From Porticoccaceae bacterium (GTDB lineage Bacteria; Pseudomonadota; Gammaproteobacteria; Pseudomonadales; Porticoccaceae), in NCBI GenBank assembly GCA_029248755.1, contig JAQWIR010000019.1:1-64000 (forward strand): a DNA stretch of 64,000 nt, read 5' to 3'. The position numbers and the translations under genes are program-made. The notes beneath the pieces are model-generated. The model was not told where the DNA came from. It worked only from the letters and a program-made list of their open reading frames with translations, and made no database searches. Positions 7,681-37,903 of the stretch are shown here, in pieces; positions within the stretch are counted from its first letter, which is position 1; each line of letters opens with the position of its first letter.

Positions 7681-8061
7681 TTAAGATTCCTCTTGGTTAC
7701 TGTTATCCGAGGATATGGCTAAATCAATGAGAGCGTCAAGACGCTGACTACGCTGTCCGGTTTCATCATAGAAAAAGTTTAATTTTGGCGTAGCACGTAA
7801 AGCAATGCTTGAGGCTAGTAACTTCCTAAGGTATCCCGATGCACCATTAAGTGCATCAAGGCCTTGTTTAATTTCATCGGATGTTCTTTCACCGACAAAA
7901 GCAACATAGACTTTAGCAATTGCAAGATCCCGAGTGACGGTCACATCAGTGACGCTGAGCATACCCACTCGTGGATCGCGAATATGCTGACGAATCAAAG
8001 AAGCTAATTCTTTTTGAACGGCATCTGAAACCCGTTCAGATCGAGTAAATTCTTTTGGCAT
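7681..8061 (-). CDS. rbfA: 30S ribosome-binding factor RbfA
   Basis: Assembly factor for late 30S maturation and cold adaptation. The 126-residue product has the single KH-like fold. It starts MPKEFTRSERVSDAVQKELA and includes the conserved DPRVGMLSVTDVTVTRDLAIAKVYV block and the ATPKLNFFYDE helix-strand. It sits between infB and truB as in most gammaproteobacteria. Its start is 16 bases after the ancestral infB stop at 8078, which is normal operon spacing. The apparent distance from the actual infB stop is larger only because infB is interrupted. Confidence 0.97.
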   Translation of the reverse strand: MPKEFTRSERVSDAVQKELASLIRQHIRDPRVGMLSVTDVTVTRDLAIAKVYVAFVGERTSDEIKQGLDALNGASGYLRKLLASSIALRATPKLNFFYDETGQRSQRLDALIDLAISSDNSNQEES

Positions 8062-8077
8062 TTATTTAGCTCTCTTA

Positions 8078-8152
8078 CTAAAGAGAGCGTTGTACCTGTG
8101 TAATTTCATATACTTCAATTTGATCACCAGGTTTAACATCATTGTAATCTTA
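8078..8152 (-). other. In-frame infB C-terminal tail behind the TAA
   Basis: Minus-strand codons after TAA (8152-8150) read DYNDVKPGDQIEVYE, then ITQVQRSL, and a natural TAG at 8080-8078. E. coli IF2 ends KNYNDVRTGDVIEVFE followed by a similar tail, so this is the lost end of IF2 with no frameshift and no decay. The following rbfA start is 16 bases away. It is either untranslated because of a point nonsense change, translated by readthrough, or the TAA is a sequence error. Confidence 0.9.
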
Positions 8153-10660
8153 AACACCAATGCCACATTCCATACCGTTGCGAACATCTTGTGCATCGTC
8201 TTTAAAGCGTCTTAATGACTCAAGCTCACCTTGGAAGATAACCACATTATCGCGTAGTACACGAATTGGTTTGTTGCGATACACAGTTCCTTCGATGACC
8301 ATACAACCCGCAATTGCACCAAATTTTGGCGATCTAAACACATCTCTAACCTGTGCAATACCGACAATCTCTTCTTTGGTTTCTGGTGCTAACATACCTG
8401 ATAGTGCTTGCTTAACTTCATCAAGCAACTTGTAGATAACACTATAGTATCGAACTTCAATTTGCTCTTTTTCAGCTAACTCACGAGCAACACTGGAGGC
8501 TCGAACATTAAAACCAAGAACAATCGCACCGGTGGTCAAAGCGAGATTGATATCTGATTCAGTAATACCACCAACACCAGAGGCTACAATTTCAACTGCA
8601 ACTTCTTCGGTAGCAAAATCATTCAATGCACTGGTAAGTGCCTCTAAAGAACCTCTCACATCAGTTTTAACCACTAATGGCAACTTATTGACTACGCCTG
8701 ATTCCATATCAGTAAACATATTTTCTAGTTTAGCTGCCTGCTGTCGAGAAAATCTTTCTTTGCGCGCTTGATCCTGTCGTTGCTGAGCTATCTCTTTTGC
8801 TTTTCTTTCATCAGCAACAACAAAGAATTCGTCTCCTGCCTGTGGCGGCTCATCAAGACCCAGTATTTCAACTGGAATAGATGGCCCTGCTTCAGCGGTA
8901 GGCTGCCTAGCATCATTATTTAGTGCACGAATTTTACCCACACTTTCACCGGCTAGTATGAAATCACCTTTTCGAAGAGTTCCCTGCTGAACTAGGGCTG
9001 TTGCAACAACACCTCGGCCCTTATCAATTCTGGACTCAACTACTACACCACGAGCGGGAACATCGACAGGCGCCGTAAGCTCTAATAATTCTGATTGCAG
9101 CAGAACGGCTTCTAATAATTCTTCAATACCGTCACCAGTCTGAGCTGAGACTTTTATAAACTGTGTATCACCACCCCAGTCCTCAGGAAAAACATCTTTC
9201 GCTGCGAGCTCTGTGGTGACACGCTCTGGATCTGCCCCTTCTTTATCCATTTTATTAATAGCTACGACAATAGGTACACCTGCAGCTCGAGCGTGCTGAA
9301 CAGCTTCTTCTGTTTGTGGCATCACACCATCATCAGCTGCAACTACTAGGATAACAACATCCGTACTTTGCGCTCCTCTGGCTCGCATTGCAGTAAAGGC
9401 GGCGTGACCCGGAGTATCTAGAAAAGTAACCATACCTTTTGGTGTATCTACATGGTAGGCACCAATATGCTGAGTAATCCCTCCGGCTTCACCAGAGGCC
9501 ACTCTTGACTCTCTAATATAATCCAAAAGGGATGTCTTTCCATGATCAACATGGCCCATTACTGTTACCACTGGCGCTCTTGGTTGCTGACTACTGTCTG
9601 TATTAAGATCTTCAAATTGCTGGGTAAGTTGATCTTCTAGGGAATCATTAGTAGCTGCGACAGGGGTATGACCTAATTCTTCAACGACTAAGAACGCCGT
9701 CTCCTGATCAATCATTTGATTAATTGTAGCCATTACGCCCATCTTCATGAGCTCTTTGACAACCACACCCGATTTTAGCGACATCATTTGCGCTAAGTCA
9801 GCAACACTAACTTCATCGGGAATGGCTACTTCTACAATCTTTTTATCAACTGGTTTTTTAAATACGTGCTTGTTATCAACTTTAAGAGCCGAACGAAGAC
9901 CTGACTTTAGTCGGGGTCTAGCGCCCTTTTCACCCATTGCTTCATCAAGCTCGACACGAGGTTTTTTCTTGCTTTTGATAGATGGCTTTTTGGCCGCTTT
10001 TCTAGCAATTTTATCTTCTTCATCATCAGATGATTTGGCCTGGCGTCGACCTTTATCTAGAACTGGCTCCGAGGGAACAGGCTGCTGTGTAGGCGATGCA
10101 GCTGTCTTTTTAACTGGCTTCTGCGCTTGATTTTCAGAAGTTTCAGCCGCTTTTTTAGCTTCATCTTCAGTCTTTTCTTCCAATTTTTTCTTTTCAGCAT
10201 CTTCTTCAGCTTGCTTAGCTTCAGTTTCCGCGTTTCGGCGTTTTTCAATGGCTGATTGACGTTTTTGTTCAATATCATCAATTCCGGTACCAAACTCTAC
10301 TTCTGGCACATCCTGTTCACGAAGAACCACTTCTTCAGCCTCAGCCTTAGCTTGAGTCTCTAACTCTTCGTCACTACGCTTGACGTAAGTTCTTTTTTTG
10401 CGAACTTCGATATTAACAGTTTTCTTGTTGCCCGACTTGAGAGTACTCATTGTCTTGCGACGCAAGACAATCTTCTTGGGTTCTCCAGATTTATCGCCAT
10501 GCAAGCTTTTAAGATAGCCAAGAAGAACTTGTTTTTCTTCGTCCGAAACACTGGCATCTGCCGAGCTGTGACTCAAACCAGCTTCTTTCATCTGCAATAG
10601 CAGACGGTCCACAGAAGCCCCTACGGTTTTTGCTAATTCATTTACTGTCACTTCAGCCAT
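8150..10660 (-). CDS. infB: Translation initiation factor IF-2, ended early by an in-frame TAA
   Basis: GTPase that delivers initiator tRNA to the 30S subunit and promotes subunit joining. The open product is 836 residues: IF2N domain (1-50), a long charged Lys/Glu linker (about 90-280), a second IF2N-like module (about 285-335), then the G domain with GHVDHGKT (about 366-373), DTPG (about 413) and NKMD (about 470), domains II and III, and the C2 domain that binds formyl-Met-tRNA. The frame stops at TAA (8152-8150) right after the C2 stretch ECGIGV. The next 23 codons continue in the same frame and encode the usual IF2 C-terminus. Full length would be 860 residues. The stop falls where relatives have Lys, so AAA to TAA would explain it. 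Confidence 0.93.
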
Positions 10661-36553: not shown

Positions 36554-37903
36554 ATGACTCAGGTAACGCAACATAATAACCTACTGTCACAACTTGGTAG
36601 CGCCATCGACTCGGTGACGTTAAATCAAGTTAGGCACACCCTCAATAATTTATCCCCACCCGATGTTGCCCACCAGTTGGAAACTGCTCCTCCTAAATAC
36701 AGAAGAATTCTTTGGGAACTCGTTGATCCGGAAATATCTGGAGAAGTTATTCATTAATTATCCGATGATATAAGATTAGAATTTTTAGATGAAATGGATA
36801 GCGCCGAAGTCGCATCCATAACCGAGGGTCTGGATGTCGATGACATTGTAGATATCCTCCAGCAATTACCCGATCGCGTTATCCCTGAGGTTTTACAAGC
36901 CATGTCGGCGCAGGATAGACAACGGGTTGAGTCAGTTCTTACTTATAACGAAGATACCGCTGGCGGCCTGATGGACACTGAGGTTATAACCGTTCGTCCG
37001 GATATTACTGTTGATGTTGTTCTACGCTATCTTCGTCGTTTTGAGGAAATTCCAGAAATTACTGATAACCTTTTTGTAGTTAACCGTGATGATACTTTTG
37101 TTGGCAACCTGCCATTGGGAATGTTACTGACATCATCGCCAACGACTAGCGTAAGGGAAGTCATAAATACCGAGGTACGAGGCATCCATGTCAATCTTAC
37201 TGACTCTGAAGTGGCACAGTTGTTTCAGCGCCATGATTTGGTTTCTGCGCCTGTAGTGGACGACGAAAATCGCCTAGTGGGTCGAATCACCATTGATGAT
37301 GTGGTTGATGTTATTGTTGAGGATGCCGATCACTCTTTACTTGCTATGGCTGGCCTCAGTGATACCGAAGATACATTCTCATCGATTGGCAAAACTGTTC
37401 CACGACGTGCCGTATGGTTGGGGGTTAATCTGCTGACTGCAATATTTGCCTCAACTGCTATTAGCCTATTTGAAGATACTTTGGATAAAGTGGTGGCACT
37501 GGCAATTTTGATGCCTATTGTCGCTAGCATGGGAGGTGTGGCAGGAAGCCAGACATTAACCGTAGTTATAAGAGGGATGGCCCTTGGTCAAATTGAGCGC
37601 GGCAACCTAAACTTTCTGCTCAGCAAAGAGTTTGCTGTGGGTGCCCTTAATGGACTCCTTTATGCCCTTATCGTGGGATGTGTAGTATCGCTGTGGTTTC
37701 AAGATGCAACTATGGCTCTTATTATTGGTCTTGCTATGGCAATAAATTTGATGGCAGCTGCACTTACGGGGACGTTACTTCCGGTGTTACTTAAATCTCT
37801 TAAAATTGATCCCGCGCTTGCAGGAACAGTTATCCTGACCACAATTACTGATGTAGTAGGCTTTATTTCGTTCCTCGGCCTTGCAACACTGTTTCTTACC
37901 TAA
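36554..37903 (+). pseudogene. mgtE: Magnesium transporter MgtE, interrupted by in-frame TAA at codon 68
   Basis: MgtE is a Mg2+-gated channel with an N-domain, a CBS pair and five membrane helices. The frame from ATG 36554 (ribosome site GAGGAA) encodes 67 residues ending ISGEVIH, then TAA (36755-36757). The same frame continues without shift as LSDDIRLEFLDEMDSAEVAS to the normal end at 37903, 449 residues in all. N-domain sequence is on both sides of the stop. CBS domains (about 145-265, RPDITVDVVLRYLRRF) and the membrane domain with MPIVASMGGVAGSQTLTVVIRG are intact. The stop probably replaces Gln or Glu (CAA or GAA). An ATG at 36794 could restart a shortened 369-residue product but lacks a good ribosome site. 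Confidence 0.88.

Follow-up and report, generated by a model that had tools for sequence, protein, structure and literature searches.

The in-frame TAA codon that cuts short infB, the gene encoding IF2, in a draft assembly of the SAR92 clade is very probably a wrong or unrepresentative base of that assembly. The living organism would most likely make IF2 in full length, up to the TAG at 8080-8078, and the TAA would then have originated as a base-call or consensus error, or as a rare non-viable variant that entered the consensus. We infer an error because similar stops interrupt other core genes of the same assembly and because no relative examined shares the TAA.

The window, i.e. the whole stretch of 64,000 nucleotides that was analysed, belongs to contig C6 of the draft assembly G000, which comprises 1.65 Mb in 44 contigs and is 88.7% complete and 2.37% contaminated. 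The nearest relatives of the window are Porticoccaceae and SAR92-clade assemblies, mostly MAGs, and G000 is presumably a metagenome assembly too. The features that matter here are the following.

8150..10660, minus strand: infB (IF2) as assembled, an open frame of 836 aa matching TIGR00487 with 780 bits at profile positions 5-562 of 587
8150..8152, minus strand: in-frame TAA at IF2 codon 837, private to 1 of the 105 family genomes with a match spanning the site
8081..8149, minus strand: conserved C-terminal end of IF2, 23 residues 3′ of the TAA, from codon comparison with G008 and G014
8078..8080, minus strand: natural infB stop TAG
8069..8088, minus strand: predicted 8-bp hairpin before rbfA, its loop containing the natural stop of infB
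7681..8061, minus strand: rbfA-like gene, next in the operon, with a full-length match to frames of relatives; we take it to be rbfA from the gene order
36554..37903, plus strand: mgtE frame, interrupted at 36755-36757 (codon 68) by a TAA private to 1 of the 46 genus genomes spanning it

The TAA at 8152-8150 directly follows the residues NGMECGIGV, and the frame then reads DYNDVKPGDQIEVYEITQVQRSL up to the TAG at 8080-8078. Hence, two statements of a sequence-only reading of this DNA, that infB stops after ECGIGV and that the same frame continues for 23 residues to a TAG, were borne out by reading the frame. Counting the TAA position and the tail, infB has 860 codons; the stop costs it 24 of these including its own position, that is, the 23 residues behind it. 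The assembled frame lacks these last 24 codons of the C2 domain, while the DNA 3′ of the TAA still encodes them. Read through, the match to the IF2 model TIGR00487 (cut-off 424.4 bits) rises to 816 bits and covers positions 5-586 of 587. The gene thus resembles bacterial IF2 in its conserved tail and, with the stop read through, in covering almost the whole profile, and it differs in that the assembled frame ends at position 562. Scanning the whole assembly with the same model gave five matches, with infB, containing the one TAA, as the only match above the cut-off.

In a scripted reading of 29 related loci (L007-L035), codon 837 was a lysine codon in every one, with the same 24-codon end. Lysine also occupies the position in the 13 other sequences of a 14-sequence alignment, which includes Marinobacter, Acinetobacter and Idiomarina; three of the 13 come from close relatives, and some may duplicate genomes represented among the 29 loci. 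The TAA therefore stands where relatives have Lys, as had been proposed, and a single base change suffices, also as proposed, since codon 837 is one base away from that of the nearest relative, G014. The comparison within the clade that the sequence-only reading had suggested was made with the last 117 infB codons. Within the genus, 46 of 50 genomes gave matches, 45 of them spanning the site; within the family, 106 of 112 genomes were matched and 105 spanned it, the match in G064 being cut before the site and left out. In both searches only G000 had the stop, and the 104 other family genomes with a spanning match were free of stops throughout these 117 codons. Outside the family, the C-terminus of IF2 was reached in 20 of the 21 genomes of the order that were searched, none of them with a stop. 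A separate observation concerns G017 (C1:97121-99695), in which the infB match falls into two pieces that meet near query residues 619-632, with a TAA, and looks like a frame change in that assembly.

The segment behind the stop is conserved at the protein level. Among its 23 codons, not counting the terminal stop codon, 11 differ from G008, all of them synonymously (11 synonymous, 0 nonsynonymous), and six differ from G014, four synonymously and two nonsynonymously. Over the 400 codons 5′ of the TAA, there are 163 synonymous differences and 21 nonsynonymous ones in the comparison with G008, against 109 and 11 with G014. On this codon comparison the tail looks recently functional, which would fit an artefact as well as a mutation too young to have left traces. 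The hairpin around the natural stop is also intact, and we counted both the hairpin and the conservation of the tail in favour of an error. At this position, G014, G008, G010 and G005 are also predicted to form hairpins, which differ in their stem sequences and beat nearly all shuffled sequences; none was predicted in L011 and L012, the two larger-genome relatives that were tried. The predicted hairpin may serve the coupling or the separation of infB and rbfA translation. Short inverted repeats around the infB TAA (8131-8139/8147-8155) and, judged by eye, around the atpD TAA were too short to be given weight.

For a view of the whole assembly, coding frames from 968 kb of G000 were compared with stretches of G005, G008 and G014, yielding 489,423 aligned bases. 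For G000, three stops inside long conserved frames were kept, in infB, mgtE and atpD, and all three are TAA. In mgtE the TAA stands where G005 has Glu, and the relative's protein matches TIGR00400; downstream of the stop, a second ORF begins, 369 aa long. Among the genus genomes, this stop occurs in G000 only. The atpD TAA is located at G000:C10:626 (L174:626), at codon 184 of 465, where both G005 and G014 have Glu. It is present in 1 of the 38 genus genomes with a close match spanning it, again only in its own genome. The relative's atpD protein matches TIGR01039, and this reference has just one close match in G000, the other match being a distant ATPase (2e-6). F1-ATPase cannot be served by a beta subunit that ends at codon 184 of 465, so that the atpD stop can hardly reflect a living cell. 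Thus, further private lesions of the same kind as in infB are present in the assembly. A divergent second ATP synthase beta-like copy, with 51% identity and a TGA inside, was noted in G061 (C231:3096-4370).

The relatives were scored in the same comparison. The GAPDH gene of G008 (L190:19910) contains a private in-frame TGA, present in 1 of 47 genomes, and one further possible private stop of that assembly (L202) is perhaps a TAG; no stop was kept for G005 or G014. These numbers depend on choices made by eye among the rows marked as stops. For G000, 12 rows were marked, of which three were kept and nine dropped, six because the reference ORF was shorter than 100 codons (four in L269, one each in L281 and L284) and three because they lay in the first 36 codons, a region affected by uncertainty about the start (L180, L278, L280). 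Of five rows for G008, L190 was kept as strong and L202 as possible, and L233, L236 and L242 were dropped, as was the one row each for G005 and G014, located near the N-terminus in both cases. Rows scored weak by the script were left uncounted. For atpD, mgtE and GAPDH the genomes of the genus were counted by eye, leaving out distant paralogues, among them the G061 copy with the TGA. Frame-shifting errors were not seen in the compared genes, a point against the error reading.

Three kept stops in 489,423 aligned bases for G000 compare with one or two in 739,857 for the three relatives, a rate that is higher but not distinguishable (binomial P of 0.18 with one control event and of 0.31 with two). 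For three events, the 95% interval is 1.3 to 17.9 stops per million bases. As 4.4% of the single substitutions in the compared genes create a stop, three stops would correspond to about 69 wrong bases, or 1.4e-4 per base. Raw Illumina substitution rates average 0.0026 to 0.0109 per base according to the accessible part of PMC4787001, and residual errors at 1.4e-4 would therefore be plausible at low depth, assuming Illumina-like data and low depth for G000. The type of change gave no signature that we would use. That all three stops are TAA is not remarkable, since TAA makes up 44% of the possible single-base stops and three of three is expected with a probability of 0.086. The T of the TAA is preceded by T in all three cases, but 39% of the possible TAA changes copy the preceding base, which gives 0.06, and this candidate was not used. 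The Illumina error motifs described in the accessible part of PMC4787001 end in GG, and the infB site does not follow such a motif.

Private radical missense changes were counted in three genome triples, giving 2 for G000 versus 6 for G008 and 8 for G005, 5 versus 2 for G014 and 11 for G008, and 3 versus 1 for G014 and 12 for G005. G000 thus exceeds its sister G014 in each of the two triples with both and lies below the other partners; there is no clear excess in G000, a further point against an error, but such small counts have little power. A search for contigs of the same species in viral_contigs gave no exact match to one pattern.

Among the readings offered from the sequence alone, a sequence or assembly error is hence the best supported, given the private stops in G000, including that in atpD, and the similar stop in the GAPDH gene of G008. 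A real and recent nonsense mutation, leaving an IF2 without its last 24 residues in a cell that tolerates the loss or is dying, is possible, with a rather small probability in our judgement. The infB data taken alone fit a very recent mutation equally well, and the loss is confined to the end of the protein. C2 is a six-strand barrel, and the part of PMC4611024 available to us places its fMet pocket in Geobacillus IF2 at R654, Q655, F657, G667 and E713. Our query matches 1d1n at 19-115 to 2-98, over equal lengths. With this match and an assumed residue numbering, all five pocket residues presumably map 5′ of the TAA. It had been claimed that the lost part completes the C2 domain that binds fMet-tRNA; the end of the barrel is indeed lost, but the named pocket residues would lie upstream of the stop. 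Against a harmless truncation, the lost segment contains the columns K94, Y96, D98, K100, D103, I105, E106, V107 and R115, invariant among the 14 aligned sequences with the stop of the window read as Lys. Moreover, in E. coli IF2 the single C2 substitution R847G strongly lowers the affinity for fMet-tRNA, as stated in the accessible part of PMC8709274. With the end of the barrel missing and one substitution having such an effect, the shortened IF2 would probably be impaired.

In-frame stops are widespread in bacterial genes and mostly short-lived, on the scale of polymorphisms, according to the part of PMC7918605 available to us, which speaks for a real mutation. The infB case resembles the stops treated there: one nonsense codon interrupts a conserved gene, and conservation extends to either side of it. 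It differs in being unshared, whereas that study focused on stops common to at least two species in order to minimise artefacts. A tolerated truncation, as considered in the sequence-only reading, is possible for infB by itself but does not fit atpD, and a real mutation in infB does not account for the atpD stop of the same assembly.

Readthrough of the TAA, by a natural suppressor tRNA or ambiguous decoding that would cover infB, atpD and mgtE alike, is unlikely. In its favour, the three kept stops of G000 are uniformly TAA, compared with a TGA and perhaps a TAG in G008, and the frame behind the infB stop is open and conserved, as it would be in programmed readthrough or recoding. However, the infB stop is missing from all 104 other family genomes with a match across the site, whereas a recoding site under selection should recur in relatives. 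TAA is also the commonest terminal stop, ending 263 of the 425 compared G000 genes (62%), as in the relatives (56-66%). TAA is read by both release factors, and in G000 the frames of two genes with the class-I release-factor domain PCRF are open. No UUA anticodon was found among the 34 tRNA genes above the Rfam cut-off, and a further, weaker match was not recognised as a tRNA. Neither a Trp tRNA nor an Ile tRNA with GAU was among those read, so the tRNA inventory is incomplete, the test for a suppressor is not final and such a tRNA could sit in the missing part. A 93-nt fold past the TAA is strong (z -4.4) but includes the hairpin at the natural stop, and no RNA readthrough signal is claimed. 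The suggestion of programmed readthrough thus found no support. A more specific form, in which an ochre suppressor private to this SAR92 lineage and encoded in an unassembled stretch of its genome would cause TAA to be decoded ambiguously, with in-frame TAA entering infB, atpD and mgtE while still ending most genes in an early codon reassignment, would be a very improbable situation. A change of the genetic code was rejected because TAA ends 62% of the compared genes and in-frame stops are few.

The least likely explanation is that the interrupted infB is a pseudogene copy or lies on a contaminating contig, with a working infB elsewhere: incompleteness and contamination of G000 leave some room for it, but a single match exceeds the IF2 cut-off, the gene order around infB is the same as in G014, G008 and G005 in the compared stretches, and the nearest relative of infB, at 96%, belongs to the genus and shows normal conservation.

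A real stop would imply that a bacterium lives with a shortened IF2 or can read TAA codons, and this would be a great surprise. Private stops interrupt core genes in two of the four draft assemblies of the genus compared here and call for caution: before a private stop is interpreted biologically, it should be checked against relatives and against further core genes of that assembly.
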